The notes under the pieces are model-generated. The model was given only the letters and a program-made list of their open reading frames with translations, was not told where the DNA came from and did no database searches. From Tenggerimyces flavus (GTDB lineage: Bacteria; Actinomycetota; Actinomycetes; Propionibacteriales; Actinopolymorphaceae), in NCBI RefSeq assembly GCF_016907715.1, contig NZ_JAFBCM010000001.1:7068001-7132000 (forward strand): a stretch of 64,000 nt of DNA, given 5' to 3'. Positions 1-14,039 of this stretch are shown piece after piece; the first letter of the stretch is position 1, and each line of letters begins with the position of its first letter. Position numbers and translations under genes: made by a program.

Positions 1-3000
1 CCGCTGCAGAACGGCCTCGATCTCACCGAGCTCGATGCGGAAGCCGCGCACCTTCACCTGCTGGTCGCTGCGCCCGAGGAAGTGGATCTCGCCGTGCCAG
101 TCCCAGCGGACGAGGTCACCTGTGCGGTACATGCGGCCGCCCGGCGCACCGTACGGGCAAGCGACGAACCGCTCTGCCGAGAGCCGGCGACGCCCGACGT
201 ACCCGCGGGCGACGCCAGTGCCGGCGACGTACAGCTCGCCCGGCACGCCGACGGGCACCGGCCGGAGCAACCGGTCGAGCACGTAGACGCGTGTGTTCCC
301 GGTCGGCTTGCCGATCGGCACCGGAGCGCCGGGCTGCCGGTCGAGCGGAACGAGGCTCGCGGTCGCGAACGTCGTCGTCTCGGTCGGCCCGTACACGTGG
401 AAGGTTCGGGTGTTCCGCATGGTCTCCACCACGCGGTCGACGATCGTCACCGACACGGCTTCGCCGCCGAACCACACCTCCTCCAGCCGGTCGAGCACGT
501 CGGGCGCCTCCTCGACGAGGAGGTTGAACAGCGGCGTGATGATGAACATGCCGGTCGGCTCGTACTCGTCCATCAGCGCACGGAGGCCGTCGGCGTCGAG
601 GGTCTCGCCGGGGGCGAGGATCAGGTGCCCGCCCTGGAGCAGCGGGACCCACATCTCGTACGTGGACGGGTCGAACGCATGGGCGGAGTGCATGACCACG
701 CGACGGTGCCGACCGGAGGTGAACGCCGGGTCGGCCGCCAGCTCGACCACGTTGGCGTCGGTGACGGCGACGCCCTTCGGCGTGCCTGTCGTTCCCGACG
801 TGTAGATGACGTACGCGAGCTGGTCGCGCGCACGTTCGACCTCGACAGGTTCGTCGGGATAGCCGTCGAGCCAGTCGCCGCCGGCGACGATCGTGTGCGG
901 GCAGCCCGTCATGCCGTCGGGCAACACGGTTCGGTCGGTGACGAGGACGGGCGCCGCGACGTCGTCGACGATCCAGTTCAACCGATCTGGTGGATAGCGG
1001 TGGTGCAGCGGGACGTACGTGCCGCCGGCCTTCAACGTCCCGAGCACCGCGACGAGCAGCTCGATCGAACGGTCGAGGTAGATGGCGACCGGAGTCTCGC
1101 GGCCCACGCCGAGGCCACGCAGCCGGTGCGCGAGCCGGTTCGCCGCCCGGTCGAGCTCGGCGTAGGTCAGCGTCGTGCCCAGGTGGGAGATCGCGGGTGC
1201 GGACGGGATCGCCCGGGCGTGCGACTCGACCAACGCGGTGACGGAGGCGTGCGGGACTCGTGCGGCGGTGTCGTTCCACGCGTCGAGGATCCGTTCGGCC
1301 TCGCCGGGCAGGAGGACGTCGAGGTCCTCGAGGCGGACGTCGGGACGGTCGGCGACCGTACGGAGGACGACGAGGAAGCGCGCGACGAGCTCGCGGGCGG
1401 TCGCTTCGTCGAACAGGTCCGCGCTGTAGCCGAGCCGGCCCGACAGGCCTGCGGGCTCGCCGTCGGCGGCGACGTTCTCGGCGAGGTCGAACTCCAGGTC
1501 GAACCGCGCGACGTCGAGGTCGACCTGGACGACGTCGCTCCGCAGATCCGGGAGGGTGAGGGCGGCGTCAACGTTGTTCTGCAACGCGAGCAGCACCTGG
1601 AACAGCGGGTGCCGGGACGGGGAACGATGCGGGTTGATCCGCTCGACCACACGCTCGAACGGCACGTCCTGATGGGCGTACGCGTCCAGCGTGGTGGCGA
1701 CGACCCGGCGCAGCAGCTCGTCGAACGTCGGCTCGCCCGATGTGTCGACCCGAACCACGAGTGTGTTGACGAAGAATCCCACGAGCTCGTCCAGCGCCTC
1801 GTCGTCACGACCAGCGACGGGAACGCCGAGGGGAAGGTCGGTACCGGCACCGAGCCTCGCGAGCAGGGCGGCGAGGGCGGCGTGCAGCACCATGAACAGC
1901 GTCGCGTCGCGTTCGCGGGCGACGCGTCCGAGCGCGGCATGGGTGGCGGCGTCGAGCTCGAACGCGACGTTGCCGCCGCGATGGCTCGGCTCGACGGGTC
2001 GCGGTCGGTCCGTCGGCAGCTCGAGCTCGTCCGGCAGGCCGGCCAGCGCGCTCTGCCAGTAGGCCAGCTGCTGGGCGATGCGGCTGCCCGGATCGTCCTC
2101 GTCACCGAGGACCTTCTGTTGCCAGAGGGTGAAGTCGGCGTACTGCACCGGGAGCGGGGCGAAGGATGGTGCCTCGCCTCGGACACGGGTGGCGTACGCC
2201 TCGCTGAGGTCACGGACGAACGGCAACGTCGACCAGCCGTCCGTGGCGATGTGATTGGTGACGAGCAGCAGCACGTGCTCGGTCGCCGACTGAGCGAACA
2301 GCCAAGCACGGAAGGGAATCTCGCGCGCGAGATCGAAGCCGCGCATGGCGTACTCGCGGAGGCGGTCGTCGCCGTCGACGAGGGTCAGCACGGGACCGAC
2401 CGACTGGGCGTCGAGGATGACTTGGCGCGGCACACCGTCCACGTCGGGAAAGACCGTGCGCAGGCTCTCGTGCCTGCGAAGCACATCGCGCAGCGCCTCG
2501 TCCAGCGCCGTACGGTCGAGCTCGCCTGAGAGACGGACGGCGTCGGCGACGTTGTACAGCCCACCGGCGGGTTCCCAGTCGTTCAGGAAGCGCAACCGTT
2601 GTTGAGCAGGTGACAACGGTACGACCTCGGGGCGTGGCACCGCCCGCAACGCCGGGCGGTCGTCGACCGCCGCGTGCTTGAGGTGGGCGGCGAACCCGGC
2701 GACGGTGGGAGCCTCGAACAGGCCGCGCAGACCAAGCTCCGCACCGAGCGCCGACCTGAGGCGCGACACGACGCGCGTCGCGGTCAGGGAGTGCCCGCCG
2801 AGCTCGAAGAAGTCGTCGAACGCCCCGACTCGTTCGACGCCGAGGACGCGTGCCCAGACGCCGGCGACGAGCTCCTCCACTGGCGACCGCGGCGGAACGA
2901 ACGCGTCGTCAAGCTCGCGTTGACGGTCACCCGGAGCGGGCAGCGCGTCGCGGTCGAGCTTGCCGTTCGCGGTGAGCGGCAAGGACTCCAGGAGCAAGAA

Positions 3001-6000
3001 CGCGGCCGGCACCAAGTAGTCCGGCAGGGTCGCGGCGACGTGCCGACGGAGCTCGGCTGCGGTCGCGTCTGCCGCGACGTAGGCGACCAGGGATCGGTCG
3101 CCCGTCTCGTCGCGTACGGCCAGGACCGAGGCCTGCCGCACGTGCGGGTGCCGCGCCAGCGTCGCCTCGACCTCACCGGGCTCGACCCGGATGCCGCGGA
3201 TCTTCACCTGGTCGTCGACGCGGCCGAGGAACTCCAGCTGGCCGTCCGCACGCCACCGGACGAGGTCGCCGGTGCGGTACATCCGCTGTCCAGGTTGGCC
3301 GAACGGGCAGGCGACGAACCGTTGCGCGGTCAGGCCGGGCTGGTCGAGGTAGCCGCGCGCCAGGCCCGCGCCGGAGACGTACAGCTCACCTGGAACGCCG
3401 ACCGGCACCAGCCGCAGCGACCCATCGAGCACGTACACGTGCTTGCCGCCGACGGGCCGGCCGATCGGCGTGGCCTTGCCGGGCCCGAGGAGATCGTCGC
3501 TCATCGTCGTGCAGACGGTGACCTCGCTCGGCCCGTACGAGTTGATCATCGTGCGACCAGGTGCCCAGCGCTCGATCAGCGCGGGCGGGCTGGCGTCGCC
3601 GCCGACGCTGATCGTCCGCACCGACGCGAGGCTGTCCGGCGGCATCGCCGCGAGCGCCGCGGGCGTGAGGTCCATGTGCGTGATGCCGTGCCGCGTGACG
3701 AGGTCGGCGAACGCCTCGCCGGGCAGGATGTCCTCGCGACCGGCGAGCACGAGCGTCGACCCAGTCGAGAACACGATGCAGAGCTCGGAGATGTGCCCGT
3801 CGAAGCTGAGCGACGAGATCTGCAGTGTCCGGCTGACCGCGGTCGCTCGGTGGTAGGCGACCTTGGTCACCGCGTGCGTGGGAAGGCCCTCATGGGTCAG
3901 CGCGACGCCCTTCGGCCGGCCGGTCGAGCCCGACGTGTACAGCACGCAGAGGAGGTGCTTAGCCGACAGCGGCACCACGCGGTCGGCGTCGGTGAGGTCG
4001 GTGCCTTGGAGCGTGGCGAGCTCGGCCACCACTGCCGGGTCGTCGAGGACGAGCAGCGGCACCTCACCCGCCGGGCACGCTGGCGCTGTCGCGCGGGTCG
4101 TCAGCAGAACGGTCGGCCTGGCCTCGTCGAGCACCGACCCGATCCGTTCGGCCGGATGGCTCAGCTCCAACGGCAGGTACGCGGCGCCGGCCTTGAGCAC
4201 TCCGACGAGGGCGATCACCGTATCGAACGAGCGCGGCAGGGCCAACGCGACGAGCTGGTCGGGACCGATGCCGCGGCGCACAAGAGCGCGGGCGAGCTGG
4301 TTCGCGCGGCGGTCGAGTTCGGCGTAGGAGAGGTCCTCCTCGCCGTGGACGAGGGCGGTGGCGTCCGGTGTGAGTGCGGCCTGCCGTTCGAGCAGTGCGT
4401 GGATCGAGCCTACGCCGGCGAGATCGACCTGAGCTCCGCTCCACTCCTCGAGCAGGCTCCGGTGCTCGTCCTCCGACAGAAGCTCGAGCCGTTCGACCGG
4501 TGTGTCCGGGTGGGCGGCCGCCTGCTCGAACAGGCGGACGAGCCGGTCGACCAGGCCGCGGACGGTCGCCGCGTCGAACAGGTCGACGGCGAAGTTCATC
4601 GCGCACGCCACGCCGGCCGGCGTTCCGTCGTCGGCGCGCAGGTCGGCGACCTCCCAGGCGAGGTCGAACTTCGCCGTACCGGCGTTCATCGGCTCGAACG
4701 CGCACCCGAGGTCGCCGAGCGCCGGAAGCTCGTCGTCGACCGAGGTGATCATGACCTGGAACAGCGGGTTGCGCGACAGTGAGCGGGCTGGGTCGAGTGC
4801 CTCGACGAGCCGCTCGAACGGCAGCTCGGAGTTCGCGTACGCCGCGGCGTCGGCGTCCCGGACCCTCCGCACCAGCTCGCGGAATGTCGGGTCGCCGGAC
4901 GTGTCGGTCCGCAGCACGATCGTGTTGACGAAGAAGCCGACGAGATCGTCGAGTGCCTCGTCGGTGCGGCCGCCGATCGGCGTGCCGATGGGCAGGTCGG
5001 CGCCGGCGCCGGAACGAGACAGCAGCAACGCGAAGCCGGCCTGCAGCACCATGAAAAACGTCGAGCCCTCGGACATGGCCAGGTCCGCCAGGCGGCCGTG
5101 CAGCTCCGGGCTCAGGCTGAACCGCACCGTGTCGCCGCGATGGGACGGGACGGCCGGACGGGCGCGGTCGGTCGGGAGCTCGAGCTCGTCCGGGATCCCG
5201 GTCAGGGTCGACGTCCAGAACGCGAGCTGGCGCGACATCGGGCTGTCCGGATCGGCCTCGTCGCCGAGCAGCTCGCGCTGCCAGAGCGCGTAGTCGGCGT
5301 ACTGCACCGGCAGCGGAGCGAGGTCGGGCTTCGTCCCCGCGCAGCGCGCGGTATAGGCGTGGGACAGGTCGCGGACCAGCGGGTTCATCGACAGGTTGTC
5401 ACCGCAGATGTGGTGCAGCAACAGCAGCAGGACGTGCTCGTCTTGGCCGAGGACGAACAGCGTGGCCCGTATCGGCAGCTCGGTCGCGAGGTCGAAGCCA
5501 TGGTTGGACGCCGCCGCGAGCGCGTCGCCGAGGCGTTCTTCCGTCGTGTCGACGACCTCGAGGTCCGGGGTGACCTCCGCCGGCAGCACCACCTGGTGCG
5601 GGTCGCCGTCGGCGTCGCGGTAGATCGTGCGCAGGCTCTCGTGCCGCCGGACCAGGTCGTCGATCGCCAGCCCGAGCGCGTCCCTCCGGAGGTGGCCCTC
5701 GAGCCGGAGCGCTACCGGGAGGTTGTACTCGGTCGAGTCGCTAGACAGCTGGTCGAGGAACCACAGCCGGAGCTGGGCGAACGACAGCGGCACGCGCTCC
5801 GGCCGGGCCCTCGGTGCGAGGACCGGCTGCGCGGCGGAAACGGTCCGCGCCGGCAGCCGCTTGACCAGCCGGGCGACGGTGGGCGCCGCGAACAACGTCC
5901 GCAGGCTGAGGTCGACGCCGAGCGCCGTACGGATCCGCGCGACCGCGCGCGCAGCAGTCAGCGACAGTCCGCCGAGCTCGAAGAAGTCGTCGTCGACACC

Positions 6001-6132
6001 GACCCGTTCGACCCCGAGCAGGTCCGCCCAGATCTCGGCGATGATCTCCCCCGCCGATGAGCGCGGTGCCTCGTACGCCGTCGGACGACCCGGGTCGGGG
6101 TCGGTAACGAGCGGCTCGTTCGGCAGTGACAT
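1..6132 (-). CDS. Nonribosomal peptide synthetase, partial (PCP-C-A-PCP-C-A, runs off left edge)
   Basis: One open frame of 2044 codons with no stop, from ATG 6132 to base 1, so the C-terminus is missing. Domain order read from motifs: peptidyl carrier protein (FELGGLSL, Ser about residue 57), condensation (HHICGDN about 240, a variant of HHxxxDG), adenylation ([12 protein letters not shown] about 730, YGPSE), carrier (FELGGHSL about 1110), condensation (NHIATDGW about 1291, first His replaced by Asn) and adenylation ([11 protein letters not shown] about 1780, YGPTE). NRPSs assemble peptides on phosphopantetheinyl carrier serines. Odd: it opens with a carrier domain without its own adenylation domain, so it probably receives an acyl or aminoacyl unit from another protein. 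By hand alignment the adenylation pockets begin D-G-S and D-P-Y; I do not predict substrates. It is transcribed away from the MFS exporter at 6271. Confidence 0.93.
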
Positions 6133-6270
6133 CCCCGAACCTGCCTTTCGCCAGCCAGCAGATCCCCCTGATCACCCTGACCGTTCGTGCGTACTCTGAC
6201 CCACGGTATCCAGCGTTGGAAACTTCGACGGTTCGACGACCGACCGATCCAGGACACGGAGGCGCGCCAG

Positions 6271-7524
6271 GTGCGGTGGGAAGGGGACGGCGTCTGGCGA
6301 GACCGCGACTTCCGGATCTTCTTCGTCGGGCATGCCCTGTCGTTCGTCGGCGTTCAGGTCGGCGCGGTCGCGCTGCCGCTCGTCGCGTTGCTCACCCTGG
6401 GCTCGTCGGAGGCCGAGGTCGGCCTGTTGCAGGCGTGCGCGAAGCTGCCGTACCTCGGTATCCCGCTGCTCGCGGGTGTATACGTCGACCGTCGGCGCAA
6501 GCGGCCGGTGATGATCCGGGCGAACGCGGTGCGTGCCGCCGCCCTGCTCGCCATCCCGATCATCGGCTGGTGGGGCGGGCTGTCGTTGCCGCTGCTCTGC
6601 GTCCTCGCGGTCGTCGTGGGCACGTGCGCGATGGTGTTCGAGGTCGCCGAGCTGGCGTACGTGCCGTCGCTTGTCGGCCGCGACCGGCTGACCTCGGCGA
6701 ACTCGGCGACAGTGGCAAGTATCGGCGCCGCCGACCTCGGCGGACCGGGACTCGGCGGGGTGCTCGTCCAGGTGCTCGGGCCAGCGTGGACGGTCGGAGC
6801 GAATGGCCTGACCTGCCTGCTGTCGGTGTTGACGCTAAGCCGCCTTCGGCACGTCGAGACGTCACCACCACCGCGCGAGCGTCGGGACCTGTGGGCGGAG
6901 CTCGTCGAAGGGCTCCGTGCGGTGCTTGACGAGGCGCGAATGCGTGGCATCGCGTTCCAAGGGCTGGTGTTCAACCTGTTCCACCAGGGCTTCCTGGTGT
7001 CGTTCCTGCTGCTCGCCGTCGGTGCTGGTGGTGTCGGGCCAGGGTGGTACGGGCTCCTGCTCGGCATCGACGGCGGCGGGGCGATGGTCGGGGCGGCGCT
7101 CACTCGCCGATGGGCGGCCCGCCTCGGGTACGGGCGGGCGTTCCTCACTGGAGCTCTGCTCGGGACCGTCCCGTGCGTGGCTGTCCCGCTCCTCGCGGCC
7201 GCCCCGGATCCGTGGCGGCTGGGCGCGTGGGTGGTGCTGTTCGGCATCGCCGGGTTCGGGACCGGGATGATCCTCGTGATCGGCTTCACGTTGCGCCAAG
7301 CCTTCACCCCGGATCACCTGCTCGGGCGAATGAACGCGAGCATGCGGCAGCTGCTCTACGCCGGCATCCCGGTCGGCGCCGCAGGCGCCGGCCTGCTGGC
7401 CAGCGCGATCGGAGCGCGGCTGACGGTGCTGGTCAGCGCGGTGGGCCTGGTCACGTCCGTGCCGTTCGTGCTCCGACTCGTCTCGCTGGGGGAGCTGCCA
7501 CATCCGGACGCTTCACAACGTTGA
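6271..7524 (+). CDS. MFS transporter (enterobactin-exporter/MFS_3-like)
   Basis: A 417-residue membrane protein with about 12 hydrophobic segments. FRIFFVGHALSFVGVQVGAV opens the first segment, and the loop DRRRKRPVMI lies between segments 2 and 3, as in EntS-type major facilitator drug or siderophore exporters. An upstream in-frame GTG exists at 6187, but GTG 6271 has GGAGG eight bases ahead of it and leaves the protein starting just before the first membrane segment. It is divergent from the NRPS (138-bp gap) and 88 bp upstream of the RiPP precursor, so export of either product is a reasonable inference. Substrate cannot be read from the sequence. Confidence 0.9.
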   Translation: MRWEGDGVWRDRDFRIFFVGHALSFVGVQVGAVALPLVALLTLGSSEAEVGLLQACAKLPYLGIPLLAGVYVDRRRKRPVMIRANAVRAAALLAIPIIGWWGGLSLPLLCVLAVVVGTCAMVFEVAELAYVPSLVGRDRLTSANSATVASIGAADLGGPGLGGVLVQVLGPAWTVGANGLTCLLSVLTLSRLRHVETSPPPRERRDLWAELVEGLRAVLDEARMRGIAFQGLVFNLFHQGFLVSFLLLAVGAGGVGPGWYGLLLGIDGGGAMVGAALTRRWAARLGYGRAFLTGALLGTVPCVAVPLLAAAPDPWRLGAWVVLFGIAGFGTGMILVIGFTLRQAFTPDHLLGRMNASMRQLLYAGIPVGAAGAGLLASAIGARLTVLVSAVGLVTSVPFVLRLVSLGELPHPDASQR

Positions 7525-7592: not shown

Positions 7593-7606
7593 GGGGAGGG
7601 AGGTGA
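7593..7606 (+). promoter_or_regulatory. Strong ribosome binding site of the RiPP precursor
   Basis: GGGGAGGGAGGTGA lies six bases before ATG 7613. It is the strongest Shine-Dalgarno-like sequence in this part of the window and supports translation of the short precursor gene, as expected for a substrate made in excess over its enzyme, whose own start is a weak TTG. Confidence 0.85.
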
Positions 7607-7612
7607 GATCCA

Positions 7613-7750
7613 ATGGCCGCGAACCTCAAGAAGACCGCCATCCGCACCGCAAAGGTCGCTACGGGCGGTGCCATCTCGATGAACGGTGCCATTTCCATGA
7701 ACGGTGCCATCTCGATGAACGGCGCCATCTCGATGAACAAGCCGAAGTGA
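7613..7750 (+). CDS. RiPP precursor peptide with four GAISMN repeats
   Basis: A 45-residue peptide too short for usual gene finders. Residues 1-18 form a short basic leader containing NLKKTAIRTAKVATG; residues 19-42 are four exact tandem GAISMN hexapeptides; the tail is KPK. The codons differ between repeats (ATC TCG versus ATT TCC, GGT versus GGC) while the amino acids do not, which suggests selection on the protein. It sits 76 bp upstream of a radical SAM enzyme of the family that matures ribosomal peptides, on the same strand, with a strong ribosome binding site. Inference: it is the substrate, and the repeated Ile, Ser, Met or Asn positions are candidate C-methylation sites. The repeats contain no Cys, so lanthionine or sactionine chemistry is unlikely. 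I do not recognise this core from any described RiPP. Confidence 0.88.
   Translation: MAANLKKTAIRTAKVATGGAISMNGAISMNGAISMNGAISMNKPK
7667..7738 (+). repeat. Four tandem 18-bp repeats encoding GAISMN
   Basis: Four in-frame units of GGTGCCATCTCGATGAAC. Unit 2 carries two synonymous changes and unit 4 one; units 1 and 3 are identical. No unit is partial, and the array ends three codons before the stop. Number and register of units could vary by slippage between strains. Confidence 0.95.
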
Positions 7751-7826
7751 CGTCCGTTCACTCTGGTCGCTGTTCGGCCGCCGTCGTCGCGCGGCGGTCG
7801 GGCAGCGTGACCCTCGGGGGTGTGCC

Positions 7827-9707
7827 TTGCGACTCGTCCTCGCGTCGATGCCCTGGCAGGCGCTGCATCGGCCGTCGTTGCCCATCGGCATCCTGCACGC
7901 GCTGGTCGCGCGGGACTGCCCGGACGTGGACGTCGTGGAGTTCCACGGCGGGCTCCGCTGGGCGGAGTACGTGTACGACCGGTGGCCCGAACCGGAGGCC
8001 GTCGCCCAGCTGAGCAAGGTCGCCGAGGACGGTGTGTTCCACGGTCTCGGCGAACTGGTGTTCGCGAGCGAGCTACGCGACGACCCGGCCTGGCGGCTCG
8101 ACGAGCTCGCCGACGCCGCGCGCCGGGCGGACGTCGACGTCGATGCCGTCCGGTTCATGCGCTCCTGCGCTGAGGACTACGTCGGCGCGGCCGCCGAGGC
8201 GCTGCTGGCGGTCGACCCCGACCTCGTCGGGTTGACGACGACGTTCATGCAGAACCTCCCGAGCCTCGCGTTGGCGCGCCGCCTGAAGCAGCTGCGTCCG
8301 AGCGTGCGCGTCGTGCTCGGCGGGGCCAACTGCGAGGGTCCGATGGGGCACGCGGTGCATCGCAACCATCCGTACGTCGACTACGTCGTCCGCGGGGAGG
8401 CGGAGGAGGTGTTTCCCCTCCTGCTGCGGCGGATCCGCTCTGGCGAGTCTGTTGTCGAGCTGCCTGGTGTGTGCTGGTGGGACGGTAGCCGTTCGGTCGC
8501 CAACCCGGTCGCCAGGCACAGCGTTCCGCCCGCGGTCCTGTGCGCGCCCGACTACGACGGCTGGCAGGAGGTGTTGGAGGCCTCGCCGCTGCGGGAGTTC
8601 CTCTCCCCGGAGCTGGTGCTCGAGTCTGCGCGCGGCTGCTGGTGGGGGGAGAAGCACCACTGCACATTCTGTGGTCTGAACGGCGCGATGATGGCGTTCC
8701 GAAGCAAGCCGGCCGCGACGTTCTGGGCCGAACTCTCGAGTCTGGTCGAACGGCACCAGATCCTCGACGTCTCGGTGGTCGACAACATCCTCGACATGGG
8801 CTACTTCAGCAGCCTGCTACCGCTGATGACCGAGGCCGACTGGGATCTGCGGGTGCACTACGAGGTCAAGTCGAACCTCCGCGCGACGCAGATCGCCGAC
8901 CTCGCCGCCGCCGGGATCGTCGTCGTGCAGCCGGGCATCGAGAGCCTGAACGCGCGGGTGCTCGATCTCATGGACAAGGGCGTGACGGGCGCGGCGAACG
9001 TGCAGACACTGCGCGAGTGCGAGGACCACTCGCTGACTGTCGAATGGAACTATCTGTACGGCTTCCCGGGCGAACTCGCCTCCGACTACCGCGGCGTGCT
9101 CGACCAGCTGCCCGCCCTCGTTCACCTGCAGCCGCCTGGCGGCGCCTCTCGGATCGTGCTGGAGCGCTTCAGCCCGTACTTCGAGCGGCCCGAGCTCGGC
9201 TTCGCGCGGCGTGAGCCGATGGGGTTCTACCAGCAGGCGTACGACCTTCCGCGTGCCGAGCTGGACGATCTCGCGTACTTCTTCGGTTGTGACGACGCCG
9301 GGATCGACGACCAGCTTGCCGGCGAGCTGGCGGCCACGATCTCCCAGTGGCGGCGGCTGTATCCGTCGTCCTCGCTTACCGCGCGCACGGACGGCGGCGC
9401 CGACCTCGTCATCGAGGACCGCCGTGCGGGATGGGCCGCGAGCGAGCACCGGCTCGGCGGCTGGCAGGCCGCGGCGTACCGTTCGCTCGACCGCCGCGCC
9501 TCGCCGGAAGGACTGCGCCGCCGGCTGGAGCGGGACGGTGTCGGTGTCTCGGTCGATGTCCTGGTCGACTGGTTGCGCGCGCTGCTCGTTGACGGGCTGG
9601 TTTTCGTGGACGGCGCGGACTGGGTGGCGCTCGCCGTGGCGGACACGCCTTGGAAGGCGTTCGCTCACGGTGGCCATACGCGTGAACCCGCCGAGGTGAC
9701 GGGATGA
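7827..9707 (+). CDS. RiPP maturation radical SAM C-methyltransferase (B12-type)
   Basis: A 626-residue protein. The N-terminus MRLVLASMPWQALHRPSLP and the cluster motif CWWGEKHHCTFCGLNG (Cys271, Cys279, Cys282: CX7CX2C rather than CX3CX2C) are typical of the RiPP-maturation radical SAM family I know as TIGR03975. A cobalamin-binding-like segment precedes it (about residues 95-200: VGLTTTFMQNLPS, VVLGGANCEG). Relatives use a 4Fe-4S cluster, S-adenosylmethionine and cobalamin to methylate unactivated carbons of peptide substrates. The start is TTG 7827 behind GGGGGTGTG; no in-frame ATG or GTG lies nearer, and the protein aligns from this residue. The stop overlaps the next start (ATGA), so the two are translationally coupled. 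Expected substrate: the peptide at 7613. Confidence 0.92.
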   Translation: MRLVLASMPWQALHRPSLPIGILHALVARDCPDVDVVEFHGGLRWAEYVYDRWPEPEAVAQLSKVAEDGVFHGLGELVFASELRDDPAWRLDELADAARRADVDVDAVRFMRSCAEDYVGAAAEALLAVDPDLVGLTTTFMQNLPSLALARRLKQLRPSVRVVLGGANCEGPMGHAVHRNHPYVDYVVRGEAEEVFPLLLRRIRSGESVVELPGVCWWDGSRSVANPVARHSVPPAVLCAPDYDGWQEVLEASPLREFLSPELVLESARGCWWGEKHHCTFCGLNGAMMAFRSKPAATFWAELSSLVERHQILDVSVVDNILDMGYFSSLLPLMTEADWDLRVHYEVKSNLRATQIADLAAAGIVVVQPGIESLNARVLDLMDKGVTGAANVQTLRECEDHSLTVEWNYLYGFPGELASDYRGVLDQLPALVHLQPPGGASRIVLERFSPYFERPELGFARREPMGFYQQAYDLPRAELDDLAYFFGCDDAGIDDQLAGELAATISQWRRLYPSSSLTARTDGGADLVIEDRRAGWAASEHRLGGWQAAAYRSLDRRASPEGLRRRLERDGVGVSVDVLVDWLRALLVDGLVFVDGADWVALAVADTPWKAFAHGGHTREPAEVTG

Positions 9708-10159
9708 TCGTTCTGGGGCAGGAACCTGCGGCGACCGTTCGGTACCTCGCGACGCTGCGGGACGGACTGTCGGCCGGGAAACTCCCTGTATGGGAAGGCG
9801 GTCTGTCGCCGGTGCTGGACCTCGACCTCGTATGCCACCTGCCACCGCCGACCAACCATCCGGAATGGACTGCGCGGTTCCGGCCGGGGCTGTGCTACTA
9901 CCGCCACGGACCCGGATTCGTGGAGGTGAAGGACACCCGCACGCCCGCGACCGCGGCCCGCTTCGTGATCGACGACCCCGACCTGCTCAGCTGCTTCCTC
10001 CGCTGCCTGAACCCGACGCCGATCGCCGGGCTCGGACCGGCCGACACGGAGGCGGTCGAGGCACTCGTCGACGAACGCCTCGTCCTTCGGTTCGATGACA
10101 CCCTGCTCACCCTTCCCCACCGCATGACCCGCTGGCCGATACCAGCTATGGCGTCCTGA
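9704..10159 (+). CDS. DUF5825 family protein, RiPP operon partner
   Basis: 151 residues, start ATG overlapping the radical SAM stop by four bases. It resembles the DUF5825 proteins that accompany actinobacterial RiPP-maturation radical SAM genes. No catalytic motif, signal peptide or membrane segment is visible; the middle (LDLDLVCHLPPPTNHPEW, FRPGLCYYRHGPGF) looks like a small beta-rich fold, and the C-terminal third (FVIDDPDLLSCFLRCLNP) is helical. Because it is coupled to the methyltransferase, an accessory role in substrate recognition or a second modification is the natural inference, but no activity is established from the sequence. Confidence 0.8.
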   Translation: MIVLGQEPAATVRYLATLRDGLSAGKLPVWEGGLSPVLDLDLVCHLPPPTNHPEWTARFRPGLCYYRHGPGFVEVKDTRTPATAARFVIDDPDLLSCFLRCLNPTPIAGLGPADTEAVEALVDERLVLRFDDTLLTLPHRMTRWPIPAMAS

Positions 10160-10211: not shown

Positions 10212-10325
10212 ATGTCGACCGCCGCAGTCATCCTGTACCTCGCCACGATCACGGCGAACGCCGTCTTCGCTGCCGCCGACCTCGTCGGGGGCACGGTTCG
10301 TGCTCGCGAGCGGCTACGGCAGCCG
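10212..10325 (+). pseudogene. DoxX-like protein, N-terminal remnant
   Basis: ATG 10212 begins a frame reading STAAVILYLATITANAVF, resembling the first membrane segment of small DoxX-like membrane proteins. The family continuation (ARFVLASGYG) is present but in another frame, after a GGGGG run near 10290. After that the sequence enters the 3' end of the convergent glycosidase gene. A decayed, truncated gene. Confidence 0.4.
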
Positions 10326-13300
10326 GACGCCCAGCACGCCCTTGAGGTAGTGCTCCTTCACCTCGGCCGCTGACAACGCGTGGTCGTAGATCGCGACCTC
10401 GTCCATCGAGCCAGCCAACCTCGTCGCGGCGTCGTCACCTCGGGCGCCGAGCTTGACCGTCGCGACCCCGTCGGTCGGGTTGCCCGCCGCGGAAACGACG
10501 GCCTCGAGCTCGCCGTCGAGGTAGAGCCGCTTCTCGGTCGCGTTCGACGTCGCGACGACGTGGTGCCACTCGTCCGGCGTCACGTTCGTCTTGCCGTTGG
10601 CCGTGGCCACGATGACGGTCCCGTTCATCACGAGGAACTGCAGCTTCCGCAGGTGCAGCATCCGCAGCGCGATGCCGTTGCGGGCGGGTGCGTCGTACTT
10701 CTCGAACAGTCCCTGTTGGTAGCCCTTCGGGATCTTGAACCAGCCCTCGAACGACGTCGGCACCGTCGTCGGCGTCACGGGCGGAACGTCCGGCAGCTCG
10801 ACGTAGCCGCCCGTCAGCCGCGTCGCCCGGTCGGCGTCGCCGGCGATCGCGCCCGGTTCGCCGCGCGTCGCGGTGCCGCGGACGGTCCCGGTGGTCCCAT
10901 ACGGCGAGCTGTCCGCCGCCGACGTGCTCCCCGACGGCTCGCCCAGCCGCCAATACCCGGTCGGCCGGTCACCCCGGACGAGGTCGGCGTAGGCCTCCGC
11001 GACCGGCCGCGCGATCTCGATCGTCGTGGAGAAGGTACCCTCCGGGCCCGAGGCCGGAGTTGTGCGGAACGTCAAGGTGTGCTTGCCCACCGCGGCGGTG
11101 GCCGAGATGGAAGCGGTGACCCGCACTTTGGGATGGACCAGTTTCCCGTTGCTGGCAAGGGCAAAGGGTGTGGCCGGCGCCGTGACGCCGGGCGTGCTGC
11201 TCGCCAAGGTGAGCGAACCGTCGACGACCCCACCGCCCAGCGTCTCCATCGTCACATCGAACGCGACCTGCTGTCCGGGCTGGAACACCTTGCGACCCGG
11301 GTCCACGCGCACTGGCTCGGCCTGGTCCCGCCGCGCTGCGGCGACGGTCTCGTACGTCCCGCGAACGGCCACCTGCCCCGTCACCACACCAAGGTCGACC
11401 GTGTCACCGGAGACCGGACGCGCCTGCCCGTTCACCGTTGCCGATGCCAGCCGGTGCCCCGCGGGAGCCCGCAAGGAGAAGAGGACCTTCTGTGGTGCGG
11501 CACCGGCCCGCGACGGCAGCGTGACGTCCGCGGTGACGGTGTTCGAAGCGAGTTGCGACTCGATCTCGTACGACACCGGCCCGAACTTCGTCGGCAGGTC
11601 GGTCACCGCGATCCGCTTGCCGTTCGCCAGCCAACCGCGCGGCGTTGCCGGCGTGAGCCGCAGCGTCGTAGGCATCCCGTCGGCGGCGAGATCCTCACGG
11701 ACGAGCATCAGCCGCAGAGCCTCGAGGTAGGTCGCGTTGTTCGCCGACAACGGTGGGAAGTACTGCGTGCGGTAGTACTCGCCGATCTCCGGACAGCTCG
11801 ACACCGTGACGCCCTCGCCGCCGACGAATGTGTGCGGCGTCAGGTCGTGCGCGAGCTTGCCGTAGAAGTTGAGGATCAGCCGATCGGTTTCCTCGTTGTC
11901 GGCGAGGAATCGCACGCGCGAGTAGCCGTACTGCTCGTCGACGCCGGTCGTCCGGTAGCCGGGCGGTGAGCCGCCGAACTGGTTCGCGTTCTCCAGGTAG
12001 CAGATGCCGGGGTCGACACCCATGAGGTTGAACCTCGTGAGACCGAGGAATGTCGCGCCGTGGTTGTAAAGGTACTTCAGCATTCCCTTCGCCTGCGTGC
12101 TTCCTGGTTCCCAGAGTCCGGTCGCGAGGAAGTACGGGATGATGAGGTTCCAGTAGCTGCCCAACGTGGTCGCCGAGATCTGGTCGTACGGCGCCGGCGC
12201 ATCCTCGTCGAGCAGGCTGATCGGGACGAAGATCGAACCGTCCGGCAGCGTCGTCTGCGACTGGGTGATGGCCGCCCGAAGTGAGGCGGCGTGCTCGTTC
12301 GCCTCGCTGGTGAACGCGTTCGCCTCCGTGGTGCGTCCCATCCGCCGCAGCGCGATGCCCATATCGCGCATGCCGCGCCAGCCCTCGGCCTGGTGGTGGA
12401 TGCCGTAGATCTCGTCGTCGATGTCGGAGGCGTATCTGGCCTTGGCCAGGAGGCCGTTCGGGTCGGCGTCACGCTGGTCGCGGAAGTCCGCGAGGTAAGA
12501 CTGCAACGTGGCGAGGTTGTCGAGCACGTAGTCGGCGTCACCGGTGAGCAGGTAGTGCGACGCGGCGCTCTGCAGCTTGAACCCCTTCTCCCAGCTGCGG
12601 AAGAAGGTCGCCTGCTGACCGCGGCGCAGGATCTCCTCGAGGTTGGTGCGGAAGTCCGTGGCGTAGCCGAACTCGCCGAGCACCTGTACCGACGCCGACA
12701 CCTCGGGGACGAAGGCGAACTCGTTCGTCGTGCCCTCGTACGGGTTGCCGATGCTCTGCTGCCAGCCCATGACGAGGTTCTGGATGAGGAGGTTGCGCAT
12801 CGCATCCATCGCGTACGGCTCGGGCACCTCGACGGTCGCGCCGCCGGCGAGCTGGCCGTTCCAGTACGACGCGATCGCCGTCTTGGCCGCGTCGTACGCG
12901 GCGGGTGTGACGGCGAAGGCGCCGAGGTTGGCGGGAGTGTTCGGCAGGACGAGGTTGACGGTCGTACCGGCTGCGGTCGCCTGGACGGGAAGGGTGAGCG
13001 TTGACGCCGACCAGGTCGCGCCGGCGCCGCTCCACGCGAGGTACGTCGTCGCGCCGCTGGCGATCCGGTTGCCGGTGAGCGTCGCGGTGTTCACGCCGGA
13101 GCCGACGAGGCCGACCCGCAGCTGTTTGGCTGCATTGCCTCGTGCGGTGAAGCGGACGTGGCTGACGAGCTGGCCGTTCAGTCTGGTGACGAAGGCTTCG
13201 CGGTCCCAGCGCACGCCCTGGCTGTCGGTGTAGGACGTGGCGAGGATCGGCAGGTGTCCGCCGGTGAGCTTCGGGTCCTGCAGCCGGGCGATGTCGCTGC

Positions 13301-13754
13301 CGTAGATCTCGTTGCCGCCCCCGACCCGGAACGTCGCCGTCCGCCGCGGCACGTGCAGATCACCGCGGGACCAGTTGGTGAGAATCTGACTGCCGTCGAG
13401 GACATGCAACGCGAAGGCGCGACCGGTCTGCCAGGCCTTGTGGTTCGGCTTGGGATAGGTGAGCGGGAGATAGACCCAGGACGAGTCGGTGAGGACGCGA
13501 TCGGCCTGGTTGGCGGGAACGAGCAGCGGCTCGACGTTCTCGAGAGTAGGCCCCTCCGGCCCGGCGATGAGCTTCTCGCCCCACCGATCGCGCGTCTGCC
13601 AGAGCGCGTCGTCGACGTTGGTGACGTAGTCGCGGGACAACGGAGGCTGGGCCGGCCCAGTCCCATCGGGTCCCGTCCGTGCAGTGGCAGGCTGCGCAAC
13701 GGCGGCACTGACAGCGAGAACGGAGAGGGCAACCACCACGGCGACGCGACGCAT
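10314..13754 (-). CDS. Secreted glycosidase-like protein with C-terminal LamG domain
   Basis: 1146 residues from ATG 13754, which has GGGGAG six bases upstream; a longer frame from 13823 lacks such a site and would put charged residues before the signal peptide. Signal peptide: MRRVAVVVALSVLAVSAAVA followed by QPATARTG. The centre (about residues 310-750) has the alternating helical hairpins of six-hairpin glycosidases (LLIQNLVMGWQQSIGNPYEG, SHYLLTGDADYVLDNL, DIDDEIYGIHHQAEGWRGM). A beta-rich linker follows, and from about residue 930 a laminin-G/concanavalin-like domain (GYWRLGEPSGS, GWFKIPKGYQQGLFEKYDA, DEVAIYDHALSAAEV). It probably acts outside the cell on a polysaccharide. Exact glycoside hydrolase family and acid/base residues cannot be assigned. 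It lies near a sugar-uptake operon. Confidence 0.85.
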   Translation of the reverse strand: MRRVAVVVALSVLAVSAAVAQPATARTGPDGTGPAQPPLSRDYVTNVDDALWQTRDRWGEKLIAGPEGPTLENVEPLLVPANQADRVLTDSSWVYLPLTYPKPNHKAWQTGRAFALHVLDGSQILTNWSRGDLHVPRRTATFRVGGGNEIYGSDIARLQDPKLTGGHLPILATSYTDSQGVRWDREAFVTRLNGQLVSHVRFTARGNAAKQLRVGLVGSGVNTATLTGNRIASGATTYLAWSGAGATWSASTLTLPVQATAAGTTVNLVLPNTPANLGAFAVTPAAYDAAKTAIASYWNGQLAGGATVEVPEPYAMDAMRNLLIQNLVMGWQQSIGNPYEGTTNEFAFVPEVSASVQVLGEFGYATDFRTNLEEILRRGQQATFFRSWEKGFKLQSAASHYLLTGDADYVLDNLATLQSYLADFRDQRDADPNGLLAKARYASDIDDEIYGIHHQAEGWRGMRDMGIALRRMGRTTEANAFTSEANEHAASLRAAITQSQTTLPDGSIFVPISLLDEDAPAPYDQISATTLGSYWNLIIPYFLATGLWEPGSTQAKGMLKYLYNHGATFLGLTRFNLMGVDPGICYLENANQFGGSPPGYRTTGVDEQYGYSRVRFLADNEETDRLILNFYGKLAHDLTPHTFVGGEGVTVSSCPEIGEYYRTQYFPPLSANNATYLEALRLMLVREDLAADGMPTTLRLTPATPRGWLANGKRIAVTDLPTKFGPVSYEIESQLASNTVTADVTLPSRAGAAPQKVLFSLRAPAGHRLASATVNGQARPVSGDTVDLGVVTGQVAVRGTYETVAAARRDQAEPVRVDPGRKVFQPGQQVAFDVTMETLGGGVVDGSLTLASSTPGVTAPATPFALASNGKLVHPKVRVTASISATAAVGKHTLTFRTTPASGPEGTFSTTIEIARPVAEAYADLVRGDRPTGYWRLGEPSGSTSAADSSPYGTTGTVRGTATRGEPGAIAGDADRATRLTGGYVELPDVPPVTPTTVPTSFEGWFKIPKGYQQGLFEKYDAPARNGIALRMLHLRKLQFLVMNGTVIVATANGKTNVTPDEWHHVVATSNATEKRLYLDGELEAVVSAAGNPTDGVATVKLGARGDDAATRLAGSMDEVAIYDHALSAAEVKEHYLKGVLGVRLP

Positions 13755-14039
13755 GCGCGACTCCCCAGGACGAGATGGAAAAGGTGCGGCCCAGTATGAA
13801 GGTCGCTTCTTCACGTCCGTCAAGGCTTCGACACCAAAGCGCCAGCCGCGCGCCAGCGCATCACCTCCCGTGCCAGGGCATTTCGGACTCCTTTACGCAG
13901 AACGGACAATCCGATCCCAGCTGACCCAGGAACAGTGAGCGGCAGATCTTCGTTCATCGTGCGCGAATCGGCGGATCGTCCACCCTCCAACGTCAAGGCT
14001 TCCTTGACGCGGCCATGGCCGACAGTGCCCGCAGAAAGC

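Follow-up and report, generated by a model that had tools for sequence, protein, structure and literature searches.

The window (the whole stretch of DNA that was analysed, 64 kb in length) holds three consecutive genes on the forward strand: a small open reading frame for a 45-aa peptide (7613..7750), a gene for a B12-dependent radical SAM (rSAM) enzyme of 626 aa with a TTG start (7827..9707), and a gene for a DUF5825 protein of 151 aa (9704..10159). The translation of the first, MAANLKKTAIRTAKVATGGAISMNGAISMNGAISMNGAISMNKPK, confirms the four exact GAISMN repeats reported in the initial annotation. The peptide consists of a leader region, MAANLKKTAIRTAKVATG (7613..7666), followed by the predicted core (GAISMN)x4, built of 18-bp units (7667..7738), and a final KPK. 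The repeat unit contains neither cysteine nor aromatic residues, in agreement with the earlier remark that the core lacks Cys. The strong ribosome-binding site noticed then is likewise present, as GGGAGGTGA at 7598..7606, and the AGGGAGGTGA form of this signal is common to the precursors of relatives L038/L039. No sigma-70-like promoter was found between positions 6000 and 10400, and no Rfam match between 5500 and 11000.

The rSAM enzyme matches TIGR03975 (RiPP maturation radical SAM C-methyltransferase) with 541.4 bits, against an NCBI cut-off of 281.85, and both the B12-binding (PF02310) and Radical_SAM (PF04055) domains score above their cut-offs. Its cluster motif, C(WWGEKHH)C(TF)C, corresponds to the CX7CX2C pattern, which is kept in all 126 homologues checked. 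The proposal that enzymes with this motif act as peptide C-methylators is backed by the clavusporin pair, for which this function is reported in PMC12257519. The DUF5825 protein, a predicted partner of the enzyme, is identified by a profile match of 71.7 bits (cut-off 25), and its ATG start overlaps the rSAM stop codon (ATGA), which bears out the earlier description of two coupled genes behind the repeat frame. This domain is uncommon: it is single-copy in its own genome, occurs in 2 of the 148 genomes of the relatives search (own genome included), and in 6 of 396 genomes across the phylum, four of them above the curated cut-off.

An AlphaFold2 model of the DUF5825 protein, built with 38 sequences, reaches a pLDDT of 93.7. 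Its C-terminal half, with strands at residues 64–69, 72–77 and 85–89, helices at 92–100 and 112–123, and a wing, is predicted to adopt a winged-helix arrangement. This half superimposes weakly on the leader-bound RiPP recognition element (RRE) TbiB1 (Z 4.2, rmsd 2.7 over 67 residues), a score that ties with general winged helices, and the similarity of the fold to MccB is also weak (Z 3.4). A Foldseek search with DUF5825 gave no significant match (best E 0.57). Taken as a model, the fold makes an RRE-like binding of the leader by DUF5825 plausible.

Between the precursor and the rSAM gene, folding tests identify a G+C-rich hairpin (7765..7812, forward strand), with an inner stem of 16 bp (7769–7784/7791–7806) plus extensions, a dG of -44.4 kcal/mol and a z score of -2.8 to -3.3 in two runs. 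Comparable hairpins lie in the same place in L010 (z -4.2), L035 (-3.9), L038 (-3.7), L045 (-3.3) and L068 (-4.5), as well as after the precursor of the Streptomyces clavuligerus locus L091 (z -4.2), and analogous ones follow the precursors of L039 and L073. A hairpin is visible, at non-significant scores, in L014, L066 and L071, and none was detected in L012, L020 or L053. The comparison is limited to relatives with intergenic room, many Streptomyces loci having almost no gap. As the window hairpin has no T-run, it is likely to act on RNA stability or by partial attenuation, and so to set the ratio of precursor to enzyme transcript in favour of the precursor.

Upstream of the precursor, a candidate exporter gene of the MFS type (PF05977/PF07690; 6187..7524, forward strand, open from a GTG at 6187, with the GTG at 6271 as the likely start) ends 89 bp before the small frame on the same strand. 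It diverges from an NRPS gene (1–6132, reverse strand), with condensation, AMP-binding and carrier domains, two of each in the part seen, so that the RiPP operon lies right next to an NRPS cluster. The placement of MFS genes varies in relatives: in many Streptomyces of the window's clade the gene directly follows DUF5825, in L038/L039 it is upstream and divergent, and in clavusporin loci it is upstream. The MFS and rSAM trees agree for the Streptomyces and Micromonospora members, and the window MFS sits on a long branch. Owing to its divergent sequence and the facing NRPS gene, this transporter may serve either the RiPP operon or the NRPS. Thus, the MFS gene that the initial annotation put forward as a possible exporter does exist, but it stands beside a divergent NRPS and is no clear orthologue of the MFS of the clade; the accompanying observation that the operon encodes neither a peptidase nor a dedicated ABC exporter agrees with its gene content. 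Directly downstream of the operon, a convergent gene (10317–13823, reverse strand) encodes a large protein that looks secreted and carries a Laminin_G_3 domain at its C-terminus.

Relatives of this locus were gathered as 80 loci from 84,980 species, with more obtained through whole-genome searches, and L091 was recovered from a plasmid collection. In rSAM trees, the window enzyme falls outside the clavusporin clade, which holds the S. clavuligerus enzyme, and clusters with L129, L010 and a set of Streptomyces loci (97% SH-aLRT); the sister set to this group comprises the Micromonospora loci L038/L039 together with L049 and L130. Within this wider clade, a short frame just upstream of the rSAM gene carries the motif [IL][KR][KR]xx[VI] in 35 of the 40 loci examined, compared with 2 of 2,956 small frames preceded by a ribosome-binding site elsewhere in the loci. 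The 35 loci are mostly from Streptomyces and not independent, the separate lineages being L010, L038/L039, L129 and L130. Common starts are MEIKKVVVRE..., MEIKKVAVRAQ..., MKIKKVAIKK..., MAIKRVEIKN... and MVLRKVRIVGG..., a pattern from which L049 (MKIKVENVKR) and the L131/L148 subgroup depart. In the two lineages nearest to the window, the leaders are MEIKKVAVRAQTK... (L010) and ...VLRKVRIVGG... (L129).

The repeat frame carries this motif near its N-terminus as LKKTAI, within MAANLKKTAIR, and is one of only two bearers among the 219 small frames preceded by a ribosome-binding site in the 64 kb. Scored on a leader profile built without it, the window leader beats 99.8% of its own shuffles (34 of 20,000 match or exceed it), and the profile ranks the repeat frame 5th of 577 small frames in the window. 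A profile HMM search over the own genome returned 13 weak matches (E 1.2–9), the repeat frame not among them; such a short profile does not suffice for detection across a genome, and the motif was therefore tested against control frames instead. The clade-wide leader motif, together with the operon architecture, supports at sequence level the assignment of the repeat frame as a RiPP precursor. The same two features, with the clavusporin pair, also uphold the earlier description of a RiPP-type operon formed by a precursor, a member of the B12-rSAM C-methyltransferase family and DUF5825.

The array itself is ordered, across 7667–7738, as GGTGCCATCTCGATGAAC / GGTGCCATTTCCATGAAC / GGTGCCATCTCGATGAAC / GGCGCCATCTCGATGAAC. 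The four units show three nucleotide differences, every one of them at a third position and synonymous, as the initial annotation had described; since 12 of the 54 possible single changes (22%) are synonymous, the probability of three out of three is ~0.011, which hints weakly at selection acting on the peptide. With a score of 125, the array is the highest of the seven Tandem Repeats Finder rows in the window, the next scoring 84. The double-unit pattern occurs at this locus only in its own 8.5-Mb genome, and a search of 391 other genomes of the order, tolerating up to 3 mismatches, gave no match. A search for tandem GAISMN peptides found no other case in 396 genomes of the phylum or in 72,556 plasmid records; the five best non-self matches inspected are all away from rSAM genes, and three of them are themselves short tandem repeats. 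Repeats of 18 bp of the GA[IV] type do occur in other genomes (L159, L161 and L164), as unlinked minisatellites, none of them near an rSAM gene.

None of the 80 related loci, nor any of the further loci from the whole-genome searches, encodes a repeat peptide, so the expectation that relatives would carry such peptides fails. The initial annotation had also held that its reading would fall if homologous rSAM/DUF5825 pairs consistently lacked a repeat; taken literally, this is what was found, but the precursor stands, a leader peptide being present in those 35 of 40 clade loci. With the hexapeptide repeat missing from every relative examined and tandem GAISMN confined to this locus in the searches made, the repeat looks like a lineage-specific, local innovation; because the relatives lack it, the boundary between leader and core is not delimitable by comparison. 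In a neighbouring subclade, L148 and L150 hold upstream of the rSAM gene longer precursors with a degenerate ALTVT(N/P/R)LAE-like motif, at most two-fold, which among the relatives is the sole further indication of an internal duplication. The precursor of L035, MESNEAPGDDTRAKPEIKPEIKPEIKKVAVRD..., located ~265 bp upstream of its rSAM gene, has a KPEI stretch expanded three-fold ahead of the leader motif.

An amphipathic beta-strand was considered for the window repeat and rejected, given that the hydrophobicity of the GAISMN unit does not alternate significantly (p 0.20 among unit orders), in contrast to the two-residue alternation of clavusporin-type cores, which is significant at 180 degrees (p 0.002–0.014). 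Because of this weak alternation, a surfactant role of the product, which is possible, lacks support from the sequence.

Altogether, these data argue for a RiPP operon that is sister to the clavusporins, whose precursor has a repeated core that is probably C-methylated by the B12-rSAM/DUF5825 pair. That the pair acts iteratively on the four-fold core, so that the product is either one C-methylated peptide of strict periodicity or four C-methylated hexapeptides identical to each other, is a more tentative proposal, which we hold at slightly less than an even chance. A competing view accepts the operon as real and regards the repeat as no more than a minisatellite that has expanded in a spacer or tail tolerant of it, with the enzyme acting at the leader–core boundary or sparing most repeats. 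The unlinked 18-bp minisatellites mentioned above, the lack of repeats in every relative and the KPEI expansion of L035, which lies on the leader side, are all consistent with it; however, the differences among units are exclusively synonymous, the array keeps the reading frame, is perfect at the protein level and sits where the core is expected, and the window frame offers no alternative core, all of which makes this explanation unlikely.

The chemistry could also differ from methylation, the enzyme introducing a cross-link, an epimerisation or a cyclisation into the repeats, as B12-rSAM enzymes catalyse other reactions too, and that of the pbs cluster cross-links ortho-tyrosines (PMC12257519). 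The enzyme is, however, a DUF5825-paired member of TIGR03975, the clavusporin homologues of this pair C-methylate, and the core provides neither an aromatic residue nor a Cys for a cross-link, so we regard it as quite improbable. Even a substrate role could be denied to the 45-aa product, which would then be a structural or regulatory small protein with a beta-helix-like repeat, placed by chance before the rSAM gene; a sub-threshold likeness to beta-repeat Pfam models (DUF5649, 17.9 bits, cut-off 25) points weakly in this direction. Nevertheless, a beta-helix needs more than four units, and the leader motif common to the clade, the conserved position and the arrangement of ribosome-binding site and hairpin are those of a precursor, which leaves this last explanation very improbable.

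In the preferred reading of a C-methylated repeat core, the LKKTAI leader would recruit the rSAM/DUF5825 pair, probably via the winged-helix half of DUF5825, and the enzyme would methylate unactivated carbons at a matching position in every GAISMN unit, with methylcobalamin and SAM supplying the methyl groups and the radical. Since branched aliphatic residues are frequent targets of the B12-rSAM methyltransferases known from RiPP pathways, Ile would be the first choice as the methylation site, with Met, Ala or Asn as further possibilities. The leader would be removed by a protease encoded elsewhere in the genome, and the MFS pump may export the resulting periodic peptide, which would bear up to four or more additional methyl groups. 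As parts of this model, we infer that all repeats are modified and at which residues, how many methyls are added, and that the peptide is cleaved, exported and either surface-active or used as a signal.

C-methylation of unactivated carbons is hard chemistry, for which DUF5825/B12-rSAM pairs have recently been recognised. If the iterative reading is true, this enzyme class has a multi-repeat substrate in which the number of repeats sets the length of the product. A perfect four-fold core also represents a built-in assay, in which each unit is an identical substrate, and mass steps in fours would therefore report on processivity, site and leader dependence. What is new here is the hexapeptide repeat core, which was not found in the literature searched; the chemistry class and the gene pair were already known. 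The novelty claimed initially therefore holds for the core, but the clavusporin precedent had been missed and the system as a whole is less new.

Among known systems with repetitive precursors, TvgA/TvgB consists of a tetrapeptide (TVGG) repeat precursor and a radical SAM enzyme that modifies it repeat by repeat (PMC9062424), but this enzyme belongs to a different radical SAM family and forms cyclopropylglycine instead of methylating. The CefA (Cys-every-fifth) loci, exemplified according to its annotation by L093 from Methylomagnum, resemble the window in having a periodic precursor beside a TIGR03975-type enzyme. Their repeats, however, are Cys-based, their enzymes are 31–41% identical to that of the window, no DUF5825 was found in them, and L093 carries a second rSAM/SPASM enzyme, unlike the window. 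An unannotated CefA-like peptide with Cys repeats, CVIQQCVRPCVISQCTVISQC..., is also present on a Paracoccus plasmid (L096), ~490 bp upstream of a TIGR03975-like homologue.

The clavusporin (mpc) operon of Streptomyces clavuligerus was reportedly described by Zhang & Seyedsayamdost (doi 10.1038/s41589-025-01882-8). By its name, gene content and host, L091 is inferred to be the clavusporin locus; its annotation lists an MFS, an alpha/beta hydrolase, the rSAM enzyme and DUF5825, and its 39-aa precursor, MQKDVIHNDPLAGDEENRKPSVGITITVPFRNAEDADED, lies 189 bp upstream of the rSAM gene and is not listed among the annotated genes. Precursors overlooked in this way would be recovered by combining small-ORF calling with the leader motif. 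The homologous B12-rSAM/DUF5825 pair C-methylates residues in clavusporins (PMC12257519; reference in PMC12026744), and their leader is removed by the prolyl oligopeptidase MpcP, as stated in PMC12951456. The window has the adjacent B12-rSAM and DUF5825 genes expected of a clavusporin-type operon, and shares with mpc the order of short precursor, hairpin, TIGR03975 B12-rSAM and DUF5825, with an MFS nearby. Nonetheless, its enzyme shares 45% identity with the homologue on the S. clavuligerus plasmid and belongs to a separate clade. The window precursor is without the clavusporin leader M(Q/R/E)K-x-(V/I)-x-x-N-(D/N)-P (QKDVIHNDP in clavusporin), having the [IL][KR][KR]xx[VI] motif instead, and its GAISMN x4 core differs from the one short core of the ITIT/VTVT type. 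One further locus, L057, has two tandem precursor genes (cores VSVSVSF and VSVMVYVTF) before a single rSAM gene. While the clavusporin operon includes a linked prolyl-oligopeptidase-like hydrolase, the window operon does not, and no MpcP-like hydrolase was detected in the 64 kb; a hydrolase of this type is linked in 26 of 34 loci of the clavusporin clade versus 0 of 41 in that of the window.

The window also resembles the IKK-leader DUF5825/B12-rSAM operons of Streptomyces, Micromonospora and other actinomycetes, a group defined in the present analysis, whose rSAM clade includes the window enzyme (50–55% identical to the nearest). They share with it the leader motif, the gene order and the lack of a linked protease, and differ in their precursors, mostly of 23–40 aa without a tandem-repeat core, and in the MFS gene that in many of them directly follows DUF5825. 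With a leader of its own and no linked protease, this sister clade suggests a substrate recognition and a maturation separate from those of the clavusporins.
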